From Branchiostoma lanceolatum (taxonomy: Eukaryota > Chordata > Leptocardii > Amphioxiformes > Branchiostomatidae), in assembly GCF_035083965.1 (NCBI RefSeq), contig NC_089732.1, positions 17,215,424-17,279,423 on the forward strand: a DNA stretch of 64,000 nt, in the 5' to 3' direction. The notes beneath the pieces were generated by a model. It searched no databases, had not been told where the DNA came from, and worked only from the letters and a program-made list of their open reading frames with translations. Positions 38,901 through 63,974 of this stretch are shown here, piece by piece (position 1 is the first letter of the stretch; every line of letters starts with the position of its first letter). The translations under genes and the position numbers were made by a program.

Positions 38901-41900
38901 TGACGGCTTTGTTAGTGATTTCTGGTTCCATTCATGGGCATATGTGTCACTTAAAAGCGGTCCGCTGCATGAAACACCCGTGAGGGATTGCACTCTGTAA
39001 CATCGTTTGACGTAGAGAAGCGACCCCTGGCGACACCTGGCAAACACGTCATGTAGAGCGCATGCGCTGCTAAACTGTCCTGGCAGGTTCACTGAGTGGG
39101 GGCGGCTCAAGAAACGATCACCGCGGTTTCCTGTTGTTTTTGGCAAGCGGTTCCTTCAATTTGGCATTTCTCTGGTTTGCTCTAATCGCTTGCTCTTGCC
39201 CTGAGAGATATACTGCACGTCAAGGAAAAGCCAACCGTGTTATTGATACATGTGTGGGCTGAGAGGGCCCGAGTGCATTTAGCTGGTAATGTGAGGGGAA
39301 GGCGGGTGAAGGTTGCAAATAATGGTGGTTGTATAGCTAGGAATTTCTTCTCAAGAAAGTGGGAATGTTGTTGGGATTAGAAATCAAAGGCATAGTTACT
39401 ATGAATTACGTAGTTCACAAGTCAATAAGAAGAAGTTCCTTGTTATAAGTTTAACTCGTATAACAAGCAAAGAAACCTCGCTGTAAAGTCGGCGAAGTGT
39501 TTTCTTTTCCTAACAGGCGTATTGTCATTTTTCAAAACATTTTAGCTACGACGGCAGAGAAATTTGGGGAACGTTTTAGTAAGGAAAATATATTGACAGT
39601 CAATTACGTAGTACACTGTCGTGAAAAGAATAATGAATTTAACATCTTGCGTTGCCTTCAAATCTGTAGAATTACAATAAAAGATATGAAGTGCCTTAGC
39701 CTTTTTGAAGTCGTAGGGCAGTAGGTTGTTATCTACTGTGTTAAGGGCAAGGCATCGCAATCCCTTCCACCACCGTTTACCTCCCCGACTGAAGTAGCTA
39801 TTTTTCACCTGTGTGGAGTGAGGAAAGTCGTGTAAAGTGCTTCAAAGACACAACGTCTAGCCAGGAATGTCAGAAATCGAGCGGATGATCTGTAGATGTC
39901 GTGTCCTCTGACCTTGCTATTAGGCCATTCAATGCCACAATTACAATAATGACTGCGTATTAACTTTTTTTAATATTTTTGAATCCAGATGTTGCAGAAG
40001 TTCATTCCGCGGATGAAATGTCCGTCCATAGACTGTACGATGGTTTGGCGCAGGGGCTGCGGGGCAGACGCCCGATGAACCACAGAAGTTGGCACAGACA
40101 GCACACATCCAGTCTAGAGGGAACGGTCTCCGAGGACTCCAGTTTCCAGGGAACGACAAGAAGTTGGCAAAAACACGAAGAGACCCGCATCTGGAATAAT
40201 AACACCGACGATATTCTATTTCATCTCAAGTCTGCCGAAGACAGTCTATTTTCAACAGATGTTGGGCCGGAGAGCGACAGCGCATGCGCGATCCCTGACC
40301 TGAAGGCCCCGGATGATCTGTGTTGGCGGAACGTGACGTGGAGATGTAACATGAGCGACACTTTCTCAACCCTGATCAACAGGTGGGCGGGTACAGCGGG
40401 CATCTCACTCAGGTGCATCTAATTGCGCCAAATTGCGAAAGGAAATCGATGCCAATTTGCCAACTGAAATTGTAATTTTTTTCAGATTTTCGAAAAATTC
40501 GCAATTTTCCAAAATCACGCAAAATGGCGGGGCTACTGCAAATATCTGTTTCATGAATCATAATTATTGTACATTGGCTTCTAAAGCAGTGACAACACTG
40601 TGTTTCCAGATAAGTTTTCTTGTATCTGATTGGAGCCAAAACTGAAAATCTGGCATTCCGGTGCGGGCTACTTTGTTTATAGAGGCCACGTGTTCTACGG
40701 GAAAATTTGCACACAAACATCGCAAAGTTGCCGCAATTAGGCGCAGTCCTGTGTGATACCAGCTTAACCGATCGCGGTCATAGCTTTTTTTAAGCAGTTC
40801 TTCAGTACTACTGGTGTACTCAATTTCTTTTTTCTTATAGTCACCCAAGTATTTTGATTTAATTGGATTATTTTATTCATTTGAATAGAAATCACTGAAG
40901 ATTGAAACGGTATTGTTATCTTTATATCCCATTTCTTCACAGGACAATACACGTGAACTGTTCCGGGCTTTTCCGTGTTAACTTTCTGGAGAGACGAGAG
41001 CACGAGGCCCCCCTCCCCAGCGGACAGTACGTGGAGTACCCCCAGTGGAACTACTTCGAAGGACCCACTTCCGTTGCCATGGAGACAAGCTATGCCGATG
41101 TCGTTTGCAAGGACAAAAAGTATGCAGATTACTAGTTGTCTTGTTTCTGACATTGTCATCTTCGAAGAAATAATTTTGTGACTCTTTCTTTCCCTTGAGC
41201 AAGACAGCATATAGCAAAGGGCTCGTAGACGTTTTGATGCCCATAAAATCTGGCACAGACTTTACACGTAACTTCATAACCTATCTTATTTTTTTGATAT
41301 TTCATTTCAGCGGGAATGACCAACACAACTACCACACACAGTTCCTGCCGGATGACGACATAAACGACTCTCAGCGTCAGAAGTTTCTAGAGACCAAAGT
41401 GAATGAGACATCGTGGAAGCCGCTGTCTGTGCTGTCCATCAGTCTGGACTCCGTGTCACGTGCTCACTTCCACCGGCCGTGTGGACTGCCGAGAACATCG
41501 GCCTTCCTCAGGAAACTTTACAATGGCGCATCTGAAGGTCTGATTCTCAAGCCCCCCTCTCACCGGACCCGCGGCACGCTGGCGACATCGCTGCGTCCGA
41601 TCGAATTGACAAAGCACTTGACGAATTTCATCGACAAAAACGGATCTTTTTATGCTTTGTGTGTTTTGTTGCCTTTTTGGTTATACTTGTACGTTTTGAA
41701 TGATAAACACAAATATCCAGTTTACGACGCAGCGACACCGCCAGCGTGCCGCCGGTCCAGTGAGAGGGGGCTGGTTGACCACGTTGGCAGTATTTCTATG
41801 TTACGTGTTGTTTTTGCTTCGTTTCTTCCTATTCCTGTTCTTCCGTTCGAAACAAATAAGGTTAATGTCCAGGATCAGACGGCTGTCACCACGATTACTT

Positions 41901-44900
41901 TAGCTTTAGCAGTCAGTCTGTGGCGATTACATAATTTAGCAAGTGGCAGGACAGAGCTCGAGGGGCTGATCACTATATATTTGAATGTGTTTGAGTAAGA
42001 CAGAACACAGCAGTTGTTTGTTAGTCTAGACCACGTAAATGAAAACATTTTGTATCTGCCTGCAAATGTTGTCTTTCGAGTTTATTGTTCGATTAATTCA
42101 ATGTCAGCTTTGATGTCGTTATCGTAAGGGGATCTCACAACTACTTCTGTGACTGTGATTTAAACCGTGTGTCTGAAAAGGACAGTTTAGGGTTGGATAT
42201 TTTGTATCAGCTCTTTTAACATTGCTTCTGTTCACTGTTCTGTCGATCTTAACATCTACAGGTCAGAATGGCGGATCACTCTCCCATCATGCCTTTCTCT
42301 TTAACCGCCTGAACGCCATTTCCGGTTCTACCGTGATGAACCTGACCCCGCTGTACGCAGGTCAGCTGTACGACGAGGTGGACGAGGAGAAGGCCCGGAA
42401 CAGAGTGTAAGAATCGGTCGCTGAAAGGCGTTATCAGAAATATTCTAAGGCCAGAGCAAGTAGATTTAATTGATGACACCTCCTGCAAACTCCAAATCTA
42501 CTGCGTGAGGGCCAAAAAAAGAAAGAAAACAATATAATTTTTTATTGACTTTCGCCGAGAAAAGACCAGCCTGGTGAGCCCTATGCATGTCTGCAGCCGT
42601 CATGCATCAGATACTGATGCCTGCGAACGATTGATTGAAATGTTTTGGGTTAAGCTAAGTGCCTAAATTTCACAATAGAGAAGCAACATAACATGGTATC
42701 ACATCCAACAAGTATTTTATTCCTGTATTTAAGAAGTGCACATTGTTACGATAGTGTGGTAGTCTAGTATTATTCGGAAACTAAACCTTTAAGTTTATCA
42801 GACAAGTGTCACTTCTATAAGCACAATAAAGGCTACCAGACAGCATATTTTCCCATTTGTAGTATTTTCTGTTGATTTGTTGATTTTGTCGTCCGACTGA
42901 TCTGCCAATCATGTCATTCACCTCAGGTTTGCCAAGAGGGTGAATGAGTGGATTTGGGAGTACGCCGGAAGTCGGGGTTACGTCACCAGTTATGGCATCG
43001 ACAATGGCGGCGGTCTGATGGGAACAAGAACACCATGTATGGTACGTCGCCGGTTGATGTTTTCAACCAGGGTTTCCTATATGCCCTTTATATATAGAAC
43101 ATGTGCAGGTTTCAGTTTTCTCGGATGTAATAAACACGGATAATATGAAGAGATAAATTGTTTACTAAATTTAAAAAAATGGTCTCAGCGGAATTTTTGA
43201 TTTACTTAGTCGTCTCTTACTGTCTCTGACCCTATCACTGTGAACACGTGACGTTCTGTAATTGTGACGTCAACAGTGGGTTAAATGTTGTCGGAAGTCT
43301 CCGTTGATACATGGACCGTCCCAAGAACGTTAAATTCGTTAATAACATGCGCTCTATCTCTTTATAGGACTGTCACTACAGACCTCCTGTTTTGCCACAT
43401 CAGGAGCACGGATGGATCAAACGGGAAAATGAGGAGGTCAGTTTACCCTCAGTTACTTGTAGTACAAATGTATATGTATGAGACTTACTGTCCGATGCAT
43501 TTCAGCATATTTCTACTCGCAATGTCTGTAAACAGATAGATCTGCGTGCAGAAAGTTCCCGATGTATCTGTATCTGCATAGCCTGTATAACCGCCCTTCG
43601 GCGTAGCAGCAGCTGGTTATATTACACGTAACGACCTGTCAAGCCCAACCCTTGCACATCTAACTGCAAGCGTTGTTTAAAGCTGTCTAGAGAGGATGGT
43701 GTGGCAGTACTTGGTGGCAGCGACTTCCATTCTAGTTCTAGGGAAATACGAATATTCGAGGACGTCGATCCTACGTTAATAGCCATGTATAGTATCCATG
43801 ATGCAACTTTGCTAAAACGGACATAGAATGTAGCAGTATTACGCCAATATATTTGCTTGTATTACTTGTCTACTCTGCCATCTCTGTTTTTGATTGTACA
43901 ATGCTTCAAATCAACAAAATCATGTTGTTATATCTTATAGGTGAGTCCAAACGTCCTGTCCGGTTTCTGCGAGGGAAACCACATGCTGCACGAGTACATC
44001 ATGAACTACACACGTGACTTCCTGCGCATGCCCCATCCGGCCAAGTGGGCTGCGTTCGACCTCAACGCTCACCACGGCTACTCCGCCGAGTCTGTCAATC
44101 AGCTGGACGATCGCATGGTGGCGCTTCTACAAGGTGCCCTAAGTGAAGACCCCAACCTCGTAGTGGTAAGTTCTTCGAACGCCAACAACTATTCAAACTG
44201 CTATTTTAGTTTACCTCAATTTACCTCAGTTTACCTTTAACATTAAAACGTGTAGAATATGACATTTTTGTTCAGCTGAACTTGACCTGCTATAAGCGGG
44301 ATTGCGCCTAATTTCGCCAAATTATTGCGGCAACTTTTCGACATTTCGCCGATTTTCTCTTGCGGCCACACTGATGCACAGGTAAAATACATGACCTCTG
44401 CAAACAAATGGCCGCGCCCAGAATGTCACATTCTTAGTTTCTGCTCCAATTCATTAAAGATATTGAAAAACGCAGTGTTGCCACTGACTCAAAAAACAAT
44501 ATACATTTATCAAAATGGAGATCTGCCGCTTTGCCCCATTTTGCTAATTAAAATTTTTTGAAAGAAACAAAAAAAAAATCGCTAATTCTGGCGACAAATT
44601 TAGGCCGCTCGGTGCCGATTAAAGCCGATCTAAACATCATTTCAATTTGGCGCAGTCCAGTGAGATGCCCGCTTTACTTTACTTTAGTGAGATTGCATAT
44701 CCATGCAACTGTCCTGATAGTGACTTCAGCACCAAGGACAGGGTGGACTCGGATGTGTGACGGACGGTACCAAGGTGCGCTTAGACAGGGGTGCTTTCGA
44801 TGCTCTTTTTTCTCTACGGCTGATAAGTAGATTTGTTCGGAAGAATCGATTAGTAGTATTGCCGATCGAGTGGTGGGTTAAAATAGAATTTTACGTTTCA

Positions 44901-49010: not shown

Positions 49011-50600
49011 GTTGTATACGTTTACTACATACACTACCCTTCAACTGTGTCGTCCATAACATATTAACCTTCCTTGTCTCAATCAAGATAAGACAAGACG
49101 TCATTTACTGCCCTTTTCCTTCCCTCTCTTCGAGTGTTTGTCTAGATCTGTCCAGACAGGTGTTGCGCCTGTTCGTCAGACGTTATTCATAGTATTCATT
49201 ACTCAGTGGTTGATAGATCTACCGGCCTCCTATTACCCTTACCTTTGAACGTTTTCAATGGAACTCATCCACAAACTTAGCAAGATCTTTATGCACGATT
49301 ATGTGGATTACGTCAGCGTTTCGAGCTCTTATTCCAGACAAGTCAACAAAGAACGTATTATCTTTTCTTTGTAATGAAACTAGCCAGGTTAACTAATTAT
49401 AAAAATGCACATTTCCAATCATGTACTGTAGAATTGGCGAAATGAGGTTAAATAAAATCAGAAACTGACCGAACCCGTTGAGTTCATAAAGACGGGTACT
49501 TTCCCTAGTGGTCCCCACAACAGTTATACACATCCGAAAGATTACTAAGAAAGTGCCTTGGCTCAGTTGATAACTTTATAACCAGTCCAAGGAAATCGTA
49601 AAAAGTCCAACCAAACGTCCTCGAAAAGCCCACGCTATAACCACAGCATCGATTGTTATGCCAACATGTATATATAAGTTAATCATTAACATCTACCACT
49701 GGAAACTGCCTTGTTTGATCAAGTTGCACTATGAGACCTTTTTATTGACCACTTTATTAGTTTATGGCACCAGTTATCAGTGTACATGTTGTAACAAGCT
49801 ACTTCGACTCAGATGAGGTCAGATGCCACAAACATTTTATTGCCAATTATTTGTTAATTAATTAATTCCCCAAAAATATAGACTTCTGAAGATGCTGCTT
49901 TCTTCAGGCAACTGTGTGGAAGATCGAATATGCAGTAAAGAAAACGGCAGTCATTGCAGCGATACCTGTTATTAAAACGTATATTCATGACCCTATGATA
50001 ACCCGAAACCTGCTAGATTGATTGTCTAATTGATTGCTGTCGTACTGAATTGTTATAGCAGAGGTCATTGTGGACTGAATTGACCATAGAAGCTATTTTT
50101 ACAGCAGAAAGAAGCTTCCTTTGAGTGTTGAAGAATGCGAAGGGTAGTTAGAACTGACAATAAAGTCTAAGTACACATTCGTGTCTGGAATTTGAAGTCT
50201 AGAACAAATGTCAATGCACAGCATTTGGTCTAGAAATTTCACAAAGTTAACGTTATCCATATAATTCAAATCGATAAGTCGAACGAAAGTAAAGCGAAAT
50301 CCTGAGCCATTATTACATAACCAACAGGGTGGGGATCTATGTTTCGGATTAATGAGACAAGAATAGATCTACTGAATATTGTAACCGGGTGAAAGTAATC
50401 AATTCTGCAATCCTCTTCTTGTAATTCCTTTGAATTTTTACCATCAAAATCACAGAAAAGTATGACATCATTTCAACAACGAGTGTCATTGCAACGAAAG
50501 CCTTGTTGTAATGTCTCGGATGGGGAGGTTTCACTTCAACATGGACTCCACCACGATTTTTCTATTATTGACGAAATGTTGGTGGCTTTGGGAGTTTTCT
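49011..50600. other. Intergenic DNA upstream of the cytokine gene
   Basis: Nothing with coding character is recognised. It is AT-rich and contains no long repeats that I can identify. Confidence 0.5.
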
Positions 50601-50622: not shown

Positions 50623-50632
50623 CTATAAAAAA
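50623..50632 (+). promoter_or_regulatory. TATA box of the cytokine-like gene
   Basis: CTATAAAAAA lies 87 bp before the chosen start codon at 50710. A start of transcription about 30 bp downstream (near 50655) would give a short 5' UTR with no earlier ATG, and an in-frame stop (TAA at 50686) precedes the start codon. It would also skip the out-of-frame ATGs at 50511-50541. Confidence 0.55.
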
Positions 50633-50709
50633 TGACAAGAAGCCACTGTTTCCACAGACCAACGAGGTAACATTCAGAGTCGTACTAAAAAGACGAGGTG
50701 ACCAACAAG

Positions 50710-53700
50710 ATGTGTACATTGATCATCATGACTATGCACGGTAAGTACAAATGCTTGTTTCATTTGGTATTCCCGTTAGACTATTTCGTCAGCTTCTTAC
50801 AAGCTCGTAGTATTGTCGTTTACGCTTCGACGTTTGACTCTTGAAAAAAAATAAGGAGATTTTCCGCATACCTGAGTCTTTAGATGATTGTTCACGCCTA
50901 GAGATACAACGTCACATGTTATCTTCGGTGGACTTTGGCATTTGTCCTGGATAAAAGACACTTAGGCAGTATCGCCGGAAATTTGTCTCCTACTGTTTCC
51001 CACCGGGAAACAATAAACATGTACAGATGGGGTGTTGTAGGAAAGATTATGGCTAATAGAACAATAACACGACCTAAGATTTGGCGAGAATTGTTTTTCC
51101 TTATAGAAATTAAACAAATGACAAATCAGAAGAGATCATTTCAAAACCTCAACTCATTCTATGTTTATGCCCTGCCAACTCATGACATGTCACTCCATTC
51201 CCAAATTTGGAAGAGGTTTCCGGGCAACAGCGTACTTATCTTTTAAAACTGTTCCCTGTCAACAATTGCGTCAGATGGAAACCTTCGGCAAATCCTGCGA
51301 CGATTACCGATCATTACCGAAACACAGACGATCGGATATCCGAGTGCATTACGACTGTCGACCGCCCACGAATACTTGAGTTTCACATGGCTTATACCTC
51401 TGAAATATGATTCTAAATATAGTTGCTAGAGACATTAGCGAGGCATATAAATGTCAGGTCACAGTCCTTTGTGGCATTAGATTCCTTTTTTTTTCTCTGT
51501 GAGAAGTTCATCTCTTCAGTTTTCTATCATCAAAATGGACTTCGTAGTTATGGGTGTATTTCAACGCTTTTTGAAACGCCGCCAACAGAGTTAGTATCTT
51601 CACTTTGCTATATAATTATAGGTATAGATATTTCAATTGATTAACTGTTGAACCTATTCCTGATATGGCATCTTGATGATTTAAGTGATCCTGGTTTGTA
51701 TTAATGATTCGACTTTTTCGACAATTTTTTTTCTAACCAAAAGTGTTTTTTCATTTTTTTACCAGACTGTAGTCTTTTCAAGGTCGTCGCCATTATAGCG
51801 CTGTTTTTCTCGCTGGAAGTAACATCCACCCCAGTTCCGCAGCAGTTCCCCTCTACAACAGCCTCTCCAGCGATGACATCGAGTGACGTCATTTCCCAGG
51901 TTCCCTTGCAGCTACAATCAGTGAAGTCTACTGCGCATGCGGACCCGGGGTTCCAGCAGACCAAGGCTGAAGTTCTGGAAGATGCTGAAGAGGTCAGCTT
52001 ACGGCTGTTCAACAAGGTCAAGGTCACCTTCGAGGACTTCGTGAGTGATTCACATTTCCCTGTGAAATCAACCTGTACATTCCCAAAAAGCTAAGCTTAT
52101 TGACAGGATGTTCCTGTGAATAAGAATTCTTGAACTATTGACAAGCCAGTGTGTTCCTGTCATAAGAATTTTTAGTACTATTGACAGGATGTTCCTGTTA
52201 ACAAGAAGTTTTGTGCACTATTGACAGGATATCTTTTGATCCTGTTAACCCTAACCCTAGCTCCTTAACCCTATCTAACTGGAGGGGGGAGGCTAAAAGT
52301 GCCCTCGCCAACTTTTACATCGTATAACTGCCAAACGACGTTTGCTAGGACCACCAAACTTGATGACTTTTGGTGACTCCAGAGATGCCATTCTACTTAA
52401 CCGGTTTTGCATCTGGATGGAAGCCTTCGTTGAAGACTTCCGGCCCTCAAAACCATCTAATGTAGTTTGACTTCTTGTTCCTCTTGCAGAAGGTCAGCAC
52501 ATTTGGTGATCCGAACTTTGAACAACCTAATGTAACGATTCCCGGTCTCCTGCCGCCTGGACTGGGAGATAGCGACAATTTCTACGACATGGAGGTACGT
52601 TATTTTCATACTAACGGAAATTAACGCCTCTATCACTTTGCGGTTGAAAACGGTAATTTTAGAGTACATACCTGATTTGATTTATCGGTACAAATTTGCA
52701 CAACGCGTGATGCACAGTGAGTCAATAAGGTAGGGTAAGTTGTCTTATAGGGTAAGCGTACCCTGAAGTATTATTTCACTGGACAAAGTAAGAATCCTGG
52801 ACATAGAACCAAACTTTTTTGCATGAAGAATAAAAGACGCCGTCTAAATCTAAGAGCTACAGCCATTCCTTAACCTAGACAGGGGTGCTATAGACTTTCT
52901 GGAACGGCTCACCGAATTGCGTGATATATCTGCATAACGTGACGTCACAGAAGCACTGGATTGTTCATTCCTTGGCAAAGACTGGGGTTGGTCAGTCCAA
53001 AATTTGGGTGAATACAATTTTTTGTTGTTGCAAGTCACAGTTCAACGCTGATCAGTATTTCTGCCATGTTTTTTTTCCAGGACGAGGCTCGCCTGTCTGC
53101 CATATACAGCAGTATGTACGTGATACGGCAGTATCTGTTTGAAATGGAGTGGGACGCTGTCCGGGCTGACGGCATCCACTCGAGCCTCGCTTTCAACCTC
53201 ACCGTCTGTCGACACGAACTGCAAACCTTCATGACAGCTATCAATGTGACGGTCAGTCTGGATTAATTATGTCTTTGAAAGAGCTTTTTTTGTGAAACCT
53301 AGTTTTTTTCGTGTGTAATATTGACTTATCCTAGAGAATGAAGTGTTTGTAAAATAATATGATACTCACTAACCCTGTGCAGCCCCTACCCATGTATTCT
53401 CTGTACGTATTGACACTTCACCATAGTTGTTTTCGGCACAACTGGTGGGAGATTTTTTTGTAAATCAACTTTTGTCCAGGAACATTGTAATCAGTCATAG
53501 GCTGGGATTGCTGAAAGGGTACTTGGGAATTTGGGTAAAATATTTAATGCTTTTTGATGCGTGAGGAACTAGTGGGTAGTTTTGCCGTATACTGTGAAGT
53601 AGTGTGTATTATTCTAACTTCCTAAAATTGCTACCTATTGCAAATCAATACTCCCTTCTGGACTCGAGTGACTTAATGACTTACTTTACTGTTTAACCCC

Positions 53701-53975
53701 AAACAAAATTGTATCTCGTCTTCTATATAACATACAGTCGCATCACACCCTTACTTAGTACATGTTCCGTCTTTACACCATTACAGATACACGTACTTGA
53801 TGTACAACACCCTGGCAGACCATCATACGTCATGGAACCGGATATCCGGGACCCGCCCTCCGAGTACATGCGTCACATCCGGGACTTCCTGGTTCTGCAA
53901 GACTTCGGGGTTGCTGTCAAAAGGAGCTACTTTCATTTACATGCCATGTACACCAAGTATGCACAACAGGATTAG
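50710..53975 (+). CDS. Secreted long-chain class I helical cytokine, IL-6/CNTF/CLCF1-like (candidate)
   Basis: Five coding exons: 50710-50740, 51766-52040, 52490-52594, 53081-53251, 53787-53975. They sum to 771 bp, or 256 residues. The start gives a hydrophobic signal peptide (residues 1 to about 31, FKVVAIIALFFSLEV core). The mature protein has predicted helix A about 74-102, an AB loop with FGDPNFEQP at 107-115, helix B about 138-162, helix C about 170-194 and helix D about 220-252. From memory of the family, F-x-D/E-P-x-F-x-P after helix A, R-L-x-x-x-Y opening helix B, and D-F-x-x-L with R-S and F-x-x-L in helix D are marks of CLCF1/CNTF/CT-1. The intron phases 1,0,0,0, with a tiny first exon and helix D alone in the last exon, equal the IL-6 and G-CSF gene plan. 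There is one Cys in the mature chain (180) and N-glycosylation motifs at N116, N176 and N192. It would act extracellularly through a gp130-like receptor and JAK/STAT (inference). Exon 1 is the least certain part. Confidence 0.75.
52085..52265. repeat. Degenerate TGACAGGATnnTCCTGT array with a telomere-like tail, cytokine intron 2
   Basis: ATTGACAGGATGTTCCTGTgAATAAGAA-type units recur three to four times at about 45 bp spacing, ending in TTAACCCTAACCCTAG at about 52242. The core palindrome is the same as in the arrays at 29245 and 30413. Confidence 0.7.
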
Positions 53976-54320
53976 AAACATACGGTAGCGCCTATGGCGC
54001 CCTCAATGTAAAAATGTGCGAATCCTAGTAGTGATTCACATTGTATCGTGCTCCAAGAGCACGTCTATTTATACGCGTATGCATCAAATGCACCTTTGAA
54101 CTAGATTATCACTTAGTTATATCAGGATTAAACGATAGGCATCAGTTAAATTGCAGTTTGTAGAAATGAAAGATGGCAGTTATAATCAGTCATGTCTATT
54201 ATACATATCATCTATAACTATGTTTCTGATGGTCAACAAAATATGTTTTAGTGTCGTATGGCTTGTAGATGTTCAGAAGCTATGGCCAGTGAATTTTGTG
54301 TGAATAAACCCACCTGTATG
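53976..54320 (+). other. Probable 3' UTR of the cytokine-like gene
   Basis: A polyadenylation signal AATAAA occurs at about 54303 (GTGTGAATAAACCC), roughly 330 bp after the stop. AT-rich stretches such as TTATATCAG and ATTTCGTTAAG are present, but clear clustered ATTTA elements are not. Confidence 0.45.
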
Positions 54321-54950: not shown

Positions 54951-57454
54951 AACACCCGCATTGCCACACTGCTATTAAGCCATTCTTGTATCGTGCAGTT
55001 TTGAAAAGGGGGATTATCTGAGATAATGACCCTTTTCTCGAGTGCTTGAGCGCTAATGAGTGAACCAGCGTCTCCCTCATTTGTTATGTTTTAACAAAGC
55101 CTTCAGCTGTGAGAGTCTGTTTCCTGTCCATGGTAGCTGCACCCGCCACTTGATATCAAGAAAAGGGATTCTACACGATCTCTTTCACTGACAGGGTCTG
55201 GAACTAAAGATGGCCGCGTTTGCACCTGTCTAACAGGAAAGGTGACACAAAGGATCATGGAAATCAGTGGCTTATGATGGTTCTTTAGGCAGGAAAACGT
55301 CGTTAAAGATGCATGAACGTGCGATGTCAGAGAAAGTCACGACATTTTGCATGCCACGAAGGACGACTGTAAACTGCAGGATTTCATATACAGAATCTGT
55401 GTACTTTTCTTGTAGTTACTTTAACGTTCAAAAGATTATTTTGTTGTCTTTTTTTTAAACGTCTCTCTGTACATATGTGATCAAGCAAATTTTTGCCATG
55501 TCATGGATGGTGTGACTGTGTGCGTTTAAAAAAGAATCTATTCGAGAGCTCTGTAACGTTCAGAATGAGTAGCTGCTATCTGTGCAGAGAGACGAGTGTG
55601 AAAAGTGTATATTTAGACAGCCATTCTCTCCTTTTCAGCTGTATGAAACAAGAGAATTATATTCAATTAGGTTTATCTTGTCTTATTGATCCGTTGATAA
55701 AAACAAAAGACTGAAGCGCCTTTATCAAACCTTGGCAGATTCTATCCTATGCAGTGAGAAAACTCTACACTGACGCCGACAGCATTTCCTGTCACCTTTG
55801 ACCCATGGCTGCCTGTCACGGTGTCCCCGATGTGCCTGCCAAAGATTGCGGAACTGAGGACACACACCACTACTCACAAATAAACAAACAAACAAACAAA
55901 ATCTCCGTGTTTACGGCGACAACTAACCATCTCCCACCATTACAGAGATGTAGAAAACGAAGCAAAAGATTAGGAAAATTGCGCTAGACCCAACATCTGC
56001 TTGAAGATTAAAGTAGAGGTCCCAGCAGACACGGCAGGTGCACTAGGCATGGATTAAGGACAGTTTCCCTTTATCGTTAGCATGCAAATGATTTGGGATG
56101 GTTCACTTGGAAAAAGGTGGGTTCGTTTGCAAGTAATTCAGAACTTTTATAGATGAAGCTTCAATGATAAACAACAATCTACTTGCGGATTCCCAAAAAG
56201 AACACCGCACCAGGGGTAAATTGCCTTAAGTACATCACATCCAAAAATGGTGGGTTGATGAAGTTAGGAAAACATTACACTCCTCTGACTGAAATAGTGG
56301 TGCATCCCTACATCTTAATTTGTATAAATACAACTATACTTCAACGAAACAACAGTTGTTTTCAGCTGCTCGCTTCACCCTGACAAACCACGGACAAAAC
56401 TAGTACTGTCGGTTTGGTTCAGGGTAAATCAGTAACAGTGAGGTCCTGCCAAAGGTAAGTTGGTGTTTTTGGACTGTATTGTGGTGGATATTAGCTATCC
56501 TCTACGAATGATAAAAATACCGTCTATATTTCTTTTGCTCTTAACACATTTCAAAGCTTAAGAGACGTAACAAAACGATGGCCTATATTTTGTCGATTTC
56601 TTGGTTTTATACTTTTATTTCCTGTAAACTTAATTTTGAGTAGGGTGGGGAGGTACAGCCACCTTGCAATAAGTACTGTGCCTCACAACACAGGGTTATT
56701 CTTATATAATTGTGGCAAAATTTGATCGCAAAATATTTCGTTTACAGGGTTTTTCCGCCATATGCAGGCATGCCACATACAGGTGAGTGAGTTGATCAAG
56801 TATGCTAAAGACTTTAAGGCCCGTTCGCACTTTAAGTATATTCAAGCCTGCATGAGTTTCGTATTCACGTGTTTTTTTTTTTGGTCTCGGGTAAAGTTTA
56901 CGGCCAAAAAAATCGTTCTCTCGGTTCGATAGCCAGCTGCACAACGGTGGTCAAAAACAACTTCTTTCCCACAAACAGTAAGCCAGAAAAATGTCAATGC
57001 GCTTCTCGTACGGACAGTCCAACGCAGTATTGAATGGAATTCAATGGTATATTGTTTATCATGACAGTATACATATACACATCAACATATTTTAGAAGAA
57101 ATATAACACTGTCGAATGAAAGGAAAACACTGTAAATGCCTTTAAGTTCGAGGGTCCATTTTTGGAGAAAATTTTCGTGGTGGTTATAAATCCCCTGTTG
57201 AAACAGTGAGACAAAATACAAAACGAGAAAATTCGTGGTTGTTTAAAATTCGCAATGAAGAGGTTACCGCAGAAACCGCAAACATCAGACCACCGCGAAA
57301 ATCTAATATACTTTACAGTCAAAGTGCATTTTGTTATGAAAGGTATTTTCAATCTGTTCAGAATTATCTCCATAGATCTCTCCTGTGACAAAGATAAGAC
57401 CTACGCGTTGAAAATCTCACTCTAAAATTTCACTTTCCTGATCTTCTTTCGCAG
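54951..57454. other. Upstream region of the Pax gene; first exon not found
   Basis: The paired-box exon begins in mid-codon, so a coding exon ending in phase 1 must lie here or further left. A strong donor AAAG|GTAAGT at 56455 has an in-frame TGA and no ATG in the needed frame. ATGGCTGCCTGTCACG|GTGTCC at 55805 has the right phase but a weak donor. Neither can be accepted. Confidence 0.4.
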
Positions 57455-58775
57455 GACACACGGGAATAAACCAGCTTGGTGGTATCTTCGTGAATGGGCG
57501 CCCTCTACCGGACCACGTCAGAAGTTACATCGTGCAGCTGGCCTTAATGGGCGTGCGGCCGTGCGACATCTCGCGGCGGCTGCTGGTATCGCACGGCTGT
57601 GTCTCCAAGATTCTGTCCCGTTACTTCGAGACGGGGACGGTTAGACCCGGGTCTATTGGAGGAAGCAGGCCGAAGGTAAAGTCGTCAAATTCTGAGGGAC
57701 CCGTTTTAGTTTTGCGTAGATGTTTCATAGGCCCAATCGTCACAACCCCCGTTCGTTTGTGCCCAAGAGCAAAAATAAAGTTGCTACATGTGTAAGTTTA
57801 CAACAAATGATCCAGATGCACCTGGCAAAAACATGTTTAATATCAAAGATCTTTTAACATCCCTCCATTTGTAGTTTGACCAAACTGGTGATATGATATG
57901 TTGCACCTTGCTTCAAATTATGTGGAGGGTACTCGGGGGGGGGGGGGTATCAGAACACTGTTGCTGTCTAATGTAACTGCTGCCTAGTCGAAATACAATG
58001 TCGAGTCACAAATGCAATCATCTTTTGTGATTCAAAAAATATACATGTAATCTGCAACTGTTCAGTCCCCCATTGATAGGCTAAAGCGCGCCTACTCTCG
58101 TTCTCTTGTGCGCCCCTCGTCTGATACTATAGAATATACTTTTTCTGATGTTCTTGTTTTCACCCAGGTAGCGACGCCGCTGGTGGTTCGGAAGATCCTG
58201 GGCTACAAGCTGGAGAAGCCGAGCATGTTCGCCTGGGAGATCCGCGAGCGCCTCCTAGCGGATAGGGTCTGCACTGAAGACAACCTGCCCAGCGTCTCCT
58301 CTATCAACCGCATCCTCAGGACCTTACCTACTTCTACACACGTAAGTTACAGTCATCTTATCAAAACACAAAACGTTGTACTCACAGCATATTCTTGTAA
58401 TATCCAACAATCTATAATAAACTTTTAAGACTAGTTGTTCGAATTAACAATTTCGACAAGATCATAAACTGATTTTGATATTTCCAGGACCACCAGAGAT
58501 TTCCCATCAACTTCAGAACCATCCGTGCCTCAGGCATCCACGCACCCATTCCTCTCCTCCCAGTTCAAGTAGCGACACCTAGCGGTCCATCTGTGAAGAG
58601 CACTACCACATCGGGGAGACAGACATCCCGTTCTGTAACGACCAAACCGAGTCTACCGACCGGAATGACTGAAACCCAGAACCAAACGACTGGCGATGGA
58701 AAAGACAACGACTTAACGAAACATCCCTCGGGATCTGACACTGCAGGCTATTCTTTCCCATTGTATTCTCTGTAA
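57455..58775 (+). CDS. Pax transcription factor with complete paired domain, Pox neuro-like (5' exon missing)
   Basis: Exons 57455-57675, 58168-58341 and 58488-58775 chain in frame (acceptor TTTCGCAG, donors AAG|GTAAAG and CAC|GTAAGT). The first two encode the whole paired domain. The PAI half has [20 protein letters not shown] and [20 protein letters not shown], then the linker [10 protein letters not shown]. The RED half has [30 protein letters not shown] and [39 protein letters not shown] and MFAWEIRE lean toward Pox neuro. VATP..VV.KI..YK is shared with Pax2/5/8 and Pax4/6. The third exon is Ser/Thr-rich without a homeodomain or octapeptide and ends at 58775 unless spliced on. The intron at GGSRPK|VATP is a position also used in vertebrate Pax genes (recalled). 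It is a nuclear sequence-specific DNA-binding regulator. Confidence 0.88.
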
Positions 58776-61916: not shown

Positions 61917-63974
61917 CTATTCGTCTTTAGATTTCAGACTTTCGACCTTCTTGACGAAGGTTCGGATATCTTCGGCCAGTAAGGCAGGCTTCTCGAACGC
62001 AGCGAAGTGTCCTCCATCGGGCATGAGAGTGAAGTGGATGAGGTTGGTGTGGAAGAGTCTACACCAGGCCTCCGGGTTGTGGCCTAGCTCGTGAGGGAAC
62101 GCCGCTATTCCCGTCGGAACGGTTACCTGCATGCTGAAATTGTTTAAAAAAGTGCCATTGCCATTACGTTAAAAAAAAAAAAAGCACATAGAAGCTTTTT
62201 ATAAAATTTCTAAACTAAAAACTAAAATAAACAGGTTGAGTCAGGAGCGAAACGTGATCTTTCTTTTCTTTTTCGGTACTGCTCAGCCCGCCTTTCGGCG
62301 GATTATTAGCAGCTGCGCCAAATGTTAGTAACAGGTGCAAACAGAGGGTAGAAAGGGGGGTAGACAAGGACATGTGCAAAAAACGGGACAAGTGAAACTT
62401 TTAGTGTTGTTAGTAATTATATATTTACATATATACAAGGACGGGGGGCAGCTGATTGGAATAAACCTCCTTCCAATTATGGCGGCCGATTCAAACTTAG
62501 AATCGAAGATAGCATGCACATGCTATAAAACAGGGTTAAAGTAGGCGCATATACGATATAGGGAGCACCAACTGTAGCCTCGTCTTGGTGCCAACCCTGG
62601 CACGTGTACGGCCCCGCGGTAAATTAAAAATGGCCGCCGTAATTGGAAAGAACTTTATCATTTGTTAAGAGGTTTCGAAGAGAATACTTTATTTAAAAAA
62701 TGACGGGGAAAGGCCTCCCCGAAAAATTGCACCCAAAAAAATGTTTAAAAAATTCACAGAAAGCTTATAAACTACCGTTGCAATATCTAAACCACTGCTC
62801 TTCTCCTATCTATCAAGAAAAAAGCACAAAACACCACGTGCTAACCATGGGAATGTACGTTGATAAATTTGTAATCAACCATGAAGTTAACCCACCTGTT
62901 GGTTTCCATTGCCTTTCCAGCAAACGCTTCCTTGTAGAACCTCATGGATGACGTAATGGTACCAGTCAGCCAGTAGATCATCACACTGGTCAGCAGCTCA
63001 TCCTGGGGAGGAGATCACACACTGCATTTTACACTGGGAAGGAGAACATACCTGGCAGACAAAGGTTACTCTGGGAAGGAGAACAGAATACGGCACCACT
63101 ATTGGTTAGGGCATCATGGGAAGAAAACTGCGAGAGGGAGGTTGTCCTGGGAAGGAGAACAGGATATTGATCAGGACATCCTGGGAAGGAGAGCACACAT
63201 ATGAAGGTTGTCCCGGGAAGGAGGACAGGAAGCTGATTGGTCAGTCATTCTGACAAAGGCTACATTATGTCAGACGAAAGTTCGGAGAGTTGTTCTTTCA
63301 CTGTGTTGACCTTGGATCTGTTCCTACATTCCTTTGCCAGGGCAATACCATGCAACTATGAAGAAAGTTTAGATACCTTGGTGTAGTATTTCTCCAGCCC
63401 CCCATCAGACAAGTCCCTGTTTGCTGGGTTTGTCCAAGTGGAGAATTTTTCTAGGATGTAGGCGGCCAGACCAACGGGTGAGTCATTCAGGGCAAAACCT
63501 AACAGACACAGTTTTTTTTTCATTGATTGATTCACTGTTTGTTTGCTTGTACAATAACTTCTACGTACATATATTACTGTTACAGGCAGTGACTAGACAC
63601 AGAGTGAGCTGCTGGCTAAAGAAAACAGAAATAAACACGACCCTATCATGCCCAGGACAAAAGATACAAAAATCGTAAGTTATACTACAGTACTAAGGTT
63701 ACAGACCAGGTGCCCCAAACTTGATCTTGCTTCGTCTTAAATATCATCACAATCCATCTGGCCATTATTAAGATACGCTGGCCACAAATATCCGGGGAAA
63801 AAACACGCCATAAACAATTCCTTCATTTTTCATGGAGGTAAGAAACAAATAAATTTTATCAATCAATCAATCAATGTCCATGTACTTACCAACTGTATCT
63901 GGTTTGGTTGCCTGTATGTGCATGTATCCAGTCTCCTGTAACAGCGTCATCACCATACTACCGTAGGGGTAAAC
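61917..63974 (-). CDS. EPHX1: Microsomal epoxide hydrolase, C-terminal four exons (5' part outside window)
   Basis: In transcript order the exons are 63974-63890, 63499-63378, 63002-62896 and 62133-61917. Lengths are 85, 122, 107 and 217 bp, and the phases agree. The encoded sequence follows the alpha/beta-hydrolase EPHX1 C-terminus: ETGYMHIQATKPDTVG, LNDSPVGLAAYILEKFSTWT, DGGLEKYY, MIYWLTGTITSSMRFYKE, VTVPTGIAAFPHEL and GGHFAAFEKPALLAEDIRTF. The His of GGHFAAFE is the catalytic base of the family, and Tyr in ILEKF/YW context and Glu in the PHEL-PEAW region are intact. The enzyme hydrates epoxides to diols at the endoplasmic reticulum membrane. Juvenile-hormone epoxide hydrolases belong to the same family. 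The chain ends SKDE at 61917. The nucleophile Asp lies in upstream exons that are not in the window. Confidence 0.93.
63003..63222 (-). repeat. Array of acceptor-like CTGGGAAGGAGA motifs in an epoxide hydrolase intron
   Basis: On the plus strand CTGGGGAGGAG or CTGGGAAGGAGAAC recurs at about 63004, 63034, 63071, 63147, 63181 and 63208. On the coding strand each reads TCTCCTTCCCAG, a pyrimidine tract ending in AG. The most 3' one (CTCCTCCCCAG) is the real acceptor of exon 63002-62896. Confidence 0.75.

Follow-up and report, generated by a model that had tools for sequence, protein, structure and literature searches.

The IL6, CSF3, growth hormone (GH) and prolactin (PRL) genes have five exons with intron phases 1,0,0,0, and the genes for CNTF, CLCF1, CTF1 and LIF have fewer introns. 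CNTF has no signal peptide. Invertebrate helical cytokines are represented by the Drosophila Unpaired ligands, which act on the gp130-like receptor Domeless. According to a study of receptor binding (PMC10022904), CNTF, CLCF1 and LIF anchor LIFR through an FXXK motif that opens helix D, Trp64 of CNTF and Trp94 of CLCF1 pack on CNTFR, and Arg197 and Asp201 of CLCF1 are critical for CNTFR binding. A gp130-like receptor was reported from a sea squirt in 2007 (PMC1963337), and a 2026 survey of metazoan genomes, with BLAST thresholds set at E 1e-5 and 30% identity, reports IL-6-family cytokines from vertebrates only (PMC13203501). Here we analyse 64,000 nucleotides of the lancelet Branchiostoma lanceolatum (GCF_035083965.1; NC_089732.1, positions 17,215,424 to 17,279,423 of the forward strand; hereafter the window), in which a gene at 50710-53975 (+) is likely to encode a predicted, likely secreted CNTF/CLCF1-type long-chain class I cytokine.

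An earlier note, made from the DNA letters alone, had read five exons, the sizes of four of them, phases 1,0,0,0 and a 256-residue product, and a check of splice sites and reading frame bears this out. Four introns with GT-AG sites separate the coding exons, all on the forward strand and in frame, and the spliced product is directly seen to be a single open frame of 256 codons followed by a stop. The G+C content is 0.51 in coding sequence and 0.39 in the introns, and an in-frame stop lies at 50686, 24 bases upstream of the ATG at 50710. Exon 1 (50710-50740, 31 base pairs, bp) holds the start of a likely signal peptide and is followed by the phase 1 intron, while the hydrophobic stretch VVAIIALFFSL (residues 17-27, after Lys16) is encoded in exon 2 (51766-52040, 275 bp), together with a Ser/Thr/Pro-rich segment and the greater part of helix A, which in the predicted model starts at 51963. 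Secretion via this predicted signal peptide is likely. Exon 3 (52490-52594, 105 bp) encodes the last residues of helix A, up to 52504, and then the AB loop, including FGDPNFEQP (52502-52528) and a Phe (52580-52582) that the profile alignment described below pairs with CLCF1 Trp94. Exon 4 (53081-53251, 171 bp) encodes helix B (53081-53170) and the larger part of helix C (from 53183), and exon 5 (53787-53975, 189 bp including the stop) encodes the helix C end, the CD loop and helix D (53862-53969). At the start of helix D, the same alignment places YMRH (53865-53876; YXXH, with FXXH in B. belcheri) at the site 3 position of FXXK. The motifs picked out in the note were all located (FGDPNFEQP at residues 107-115, RLSAIY at 141-146, DFLVLQDF at 227-234 and KRSYFHLHAM at 239-248), and its layout of helices on exons, with A in exon 2, the AB loop in exon 3, B-C in exon 4 and D in exon 5, agrees with the predicted structure. 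Mapped on that structure, the second intron lies close to where helix A ends, the third immediately ahead of helix B and the fourth towards the end of helix C. The note had further called this the gene plan of IL-6 and G-CSF. The five exons and their phases stand, but the plan is not specific to the IL-6 group; since GH and PRL share it, it supports long-chain cytokine ancestry in general.

Exon 1 has the weakest support in the gene model. It was placed by splice signals and by the need for a start codon, as no ATG precedes Met47 in frame within exon 2, and it is not part of the NCBI model P0001, a B. lanceolatum protein of 210 residues named uncharacterized that starts at Met47 and is identical to residues 47-256 of our product. 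The disagreement of NCBI models at the 5' end could indicate that the exons are not parts of a single gene, or that they belong to a pseudogene. This is highly improbable given that the frames are open, the splice sites match the consensus, P0001 joins exons 2 to 5 in the same way, the B. belcheri model P0002 matches, and the protein is conserved in three species.

The conservation across three Branchiostoma species is directly observed. The search for orthologues in other lancelets that the note had suggested yields relatives in both B. belcheri and B. floridae. Two are found in B. belcheri, with 67% and 55% identity and with an insertion in one but not in the other, and the B. floridae relative (78% identity) is a partial model of 121 residues (LOC118432530, P0004). 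P0004 starts approximately at the fourth exon and so misses helix A as well as the AB loop, which probably reflects incomplete annotation. The second B. belcheri model, P0003, lies on another contig and is 92% identical to P0002; its segment at the helix A end is replaced and extended, suggesting a recent duplication, allelic variation or a wrongly annotated exon. The product, P0001, P0002 and P0003 make up alignment A1. A search with the lancelet-family profile returned four proteins at E up to 10 (4,067 candidates), all from Branchiostoma, and protein searches with the lancelet sequence found no relatives outside lancelets. A sequence search of the PDB gave unrelated matches alone (E 1.6 and 1.1). 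Besides the gene itself, tblastn in the window listed three further weak matches to P0004 (E 0.41 to 0.75), which were taken as chance.

The placement of the family rests in part on profile comparison with HHalign, a check of the kind proposed in the note, which gave a match to the CLCF1/CTF1/CNTF set. The vertebrate profile held 41 sequences (10 CLCF1, 15 CT-1 and 16 CNTF) chosen from 120 listed, and the HHalign filter retained three of the four sequences in the lancelet profile. The two profiles align directly over 137 columns with a score of 35.8 and an HHalign probability of 58.8%, pairing lancelet residues 64-205 with CLCF1 67-208, that is, from the AB loop to helix D and without helix A. 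This score was reached by none of 100 shuffles of the lancelet columns (maximum 20.0), none of 200 shuffles in seven-column blocks (maximum 24.1) and none of 1,000 in ten-column blocks (maximum 34.7, such blocks retaining parts of the true match). The reversed lancelet query scored 14.2, and global mode gave 19.2 with a probability of 8%. Branch by branch, CLCF1 alone scored 32.4, the lancelet protein being 21% identical to CLCF1 in the aligned part. CT-1 alone scored 19.4 over 32 columns (above 100 of 100 shuffles); the likeness lies in a GDPF-type motif, GDPNF in the lancelet, and the difference is that the match is confined to the AB loop.

For calibration, other cytokines were scored on the 41-sequence profile: LIF and IL-11 each reached 39.8, G-CSF 24.6, PRL 17.4, EPO 15.2, GH 14.6, IL-6 13.0 and leptin 11.4. 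IL-6, itself a gp130-family member, hence goes undetected by this profile. Single lancelet sequences scored 25.5 and 22.2, so that the lancelet family performs much like G-CSF as single sequences and comes near LIF and IL-11 as a profile.

It is possible, although we find it doubtful, that the gene encodes instead a stem long-chain class I cytokine equally near prolactin/GH, IL-6, IL-11 and G-CSF, with CLCF1-like traits that are ancestral or due to chance. Here the comparison with single CLCF1 is the fair one, because the other cytokines were single sequences and thus weaker templates than the 41-sequence profile. CLCF1 scored highest among 11 single vertebrate cytokines (23.3) and was the sole template with more than 100 aligned columns (136), which argues against a stem position. 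PRL came second with 21.6 over only 18 columns, pairing lancelet 91-108 (helix B) with PRL 160-177; this score was reached by one of 100 shuffles, and the reversed query likewise gave 21.7. LIF, IL-11, IL-6, G-CSF, prolactin and growth hormone as single sequences aligned over at most 94 columns with scores below that of CLCF1, and EPO scored 19.0, reached by none of 100 shuffles. Since shuffles rarely match EPO and PRL either, they cannot on their own separate the families; in these sequence comparisons it is the length and collinearity of the match that do so.

The note's reading as a long-chain class I cytokine agrees with the predicted structure, an up-up-down-down four-helix bundle with helices of 26 to 36 residues, and so survives the structural condition under which the note would have given it up. 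The model aligned with CNTF over 173 residues (2.3 Å) and with CLCF1 over 171 (2.3 Å), and the structural Z scores of IL-11, IL-27 p28, LIF, IL-6, G-CSF, prolactin and growth hormone were below that of CNTF. Repeating the comparison with a model of the B. belcheri protein gave the same top matches.

Several observations weigh against the CNTF/CLCF1 placement. The AlphaFold models are uneven and the underlying alignment shallow, the structures of IL-11 and prolactin are only 1.3 to 2.8 Z units behind CNTF, and IL-11 ties with CLCF1. The product, P0001, P0002 and P0003 have no Pfam match, PF01110 and PF06875 included, at E up to 10, and CNTF alone gave a profile score of 11.1, reached by 86 of 100 shuffles, so that this branch shows no match to the lancelet profile. 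The receptor-contact residues of CLCF1 also differ in part. At the FXXK position, F and K are present in all 41 vertebrate sequences, and the lancelets have [Y/F]XXH (Y in two sequences, F in two, H in all four). The Trp that closes the AB loop (Trp94 in CLCF1) is Phe in the three lancelet sequences that cover it; the vertebrates have Trp in 26 and His in 15 of the 41. CLCF1 Arg197 is kept in one of four lancelet sequences, that of B. lanceolatum, with Asn replacing it in the remaining three, and Asp201 is kept in none (His in 4/4). By these alignments the aromatic anchors are conserved in kind while the charged ones are mostly lost, and the contacts appear to be only partly kept. As the strict CLCF1/CNTF signatures failed, we have not filed the gene as an orthologue of CLCF1 or CNTF. 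An Arg-Leu pair at the start of helix B is present in all 41 vertebrate (CLCF1/CTF1/CNTF) and all four lancelet sequences.

The shallow alignment, the uneven models and the missing Pfam match would also suit a secreted helical protein that is no cytokine and whose AlphaFold model borrows the cytokine fold from few sequences. We consider this improbable, as the profile match is independent of the model and falls in the same register, two orthologues give the same top structural matches, and the exon borders fit the helices as they do in known cytokine genes. The CNTF/CLCF1 branch is therefore retained as the best placement, not a proved one. Of the note's proposal that the gene stands near the base of the IL-6/CNTF group, this much holds, tempered by the close Z scores and the partly kept contacts.

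The residue pattern fits, we infer, a cytokine of unchanged three-site geometry that co-evolved with its own receptors. The lancelet protein would pair class I cytokine receptor chains and so activate JAK and STAT. An alpha-type receptor would be contacted at site 1, around the Phe that ends the AB loop and around mid-helix D; a gp130-like chain would sit on site 2, formed by helices A and C; and the Ig domain of a second signalling chain would dock at site 3, where helix D begins and [Y/F]XXH replaces FXXK. The gene would combine the five-exon plan with CLCF1-like sequence, CLCF1 having fewer coding exons than the five seen here. The coding intron of CNTF may fall at the place of lancelet intron 2, an idea not used here as evidence. 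The retrieved parts of PMC3193032, PMC7762041, PMC3995696, PMC6345746 and PMC8204807 offer no support for the position of a vertebrate CNTF intron.

As a tentative proposal, whose chances we put a little below even, the gene may be the lancelet pro-orthologue of CLCF1, CTF1 and CNTF, present in the last common chordate ancestor and the first non-vertebrate ligand tied by sequence to the gp130/LIFR branch. It would have kept the five-exon plan lost in CNTF and CLCF1, act on lancelet gp130-like receptors via [Y/F]XXH, and represent the type of ligand once partnered with the sea squirt gp130-like receptor. If the CNTF/CLCF1-type reading is true, this branch of the interleukin-6 family probably predates vertebrates; the lancelet gene would move the ligand side of the branch to before the vertebrates and supply a concrete protein with which its receptor could be sought.

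A type-I helical cytokine, the growth-hormone-like GHl (KJ735508, 208 residues), has been cloned from amphioxus, and the same 2022 review mentions further, unnamed type-I helical cytokine genes in amphioxus (PMC9010856). It also names a GHR-like gene and, next to it, the receptor gene LOC118431288. It is most unlikely that the gene studied here is GHl under another name, even though both would be lancelet helical cytokines. Primers for ghl (from PMC5376476, a study of B. japonicum, which makes the test indirect) are unmatched in the window with up to three mismatches, and their translations have no four-residue word in common with the lancelet proteins. Furthermore, the lengths differ (208 against 256 residues) and no growth-hormone-named match appeared in the protein searches. 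GHl, apparently a different gene, is thus set apart by primers, length and match names rather than by direct sequence comparison. Given the unnamed genes in the review, a divergent cytokine in lancelets has precedent, and what appears to be new is the CNTF/CLCF1-like identity of this one. Among the open-access papers that searches on amphioxus cytokines listed, no title or abstract beginning describes the gene, nor do the available parts of PMC13203501, PMC9010856, PMC5376476, PMC12409108, PMC9857879, PMC5509957 and PMC4172062, the last of which mentions fruit-fly helical cytokines. The omission of exon 1 from the B. lanceolatum database model, and of exons 1 to 3 from that of B. floridae, may help to explain the oversight. 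No Drosophila Unpaired ligand was among the matches of the protein searches with the lancelet sequence.

Pattern scans of the flanks located a TATAAA box at 50624-50629 (+), 86 bases 5' of the ATG, which may act as a core promoter, and a candidate AATAAA polyadenylation signal at 54303-54308 (+), 328 bases 3' of the stop codon. A STAT-type (GAS-like) palindrome, TTCCTTTGAA, lies 5' of the gene at 50425-50434, and a single ATTTA is present in the 3' untranslated region at 54067-54071; both are bare pattern matches.

Directly downstream, a PAX gene at 57442-58425 (+) is indicated by two open stretches matching PF00292 (E 1.1e-38 and 2.3e-18), which cover profile positions 1-83 and 74-125. It presumably resembles the Pox-neuro class, which is not known from vertebrates. 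An open stretch at 61920-62168 (-), which we take to resemble the C-terminal end of microsomal epoxide hydrolase, matches no Pfam family up to E 0.1. The open stretch at 41174-41995 (+) has a weak DUF229 match (E 2.6e-4, with a score under Pfam's cut-off), and 43941-44237 may share a gene with it by resemblance; the Pfam scan of the latter gave no DUF229 and a weak His_Phos_1 match alone (E 0.048). At the window edge, a coding stretch of 504 residues (2-1513, +) contains leucine-rich repeats (LRR_8, E 1.1e-20).
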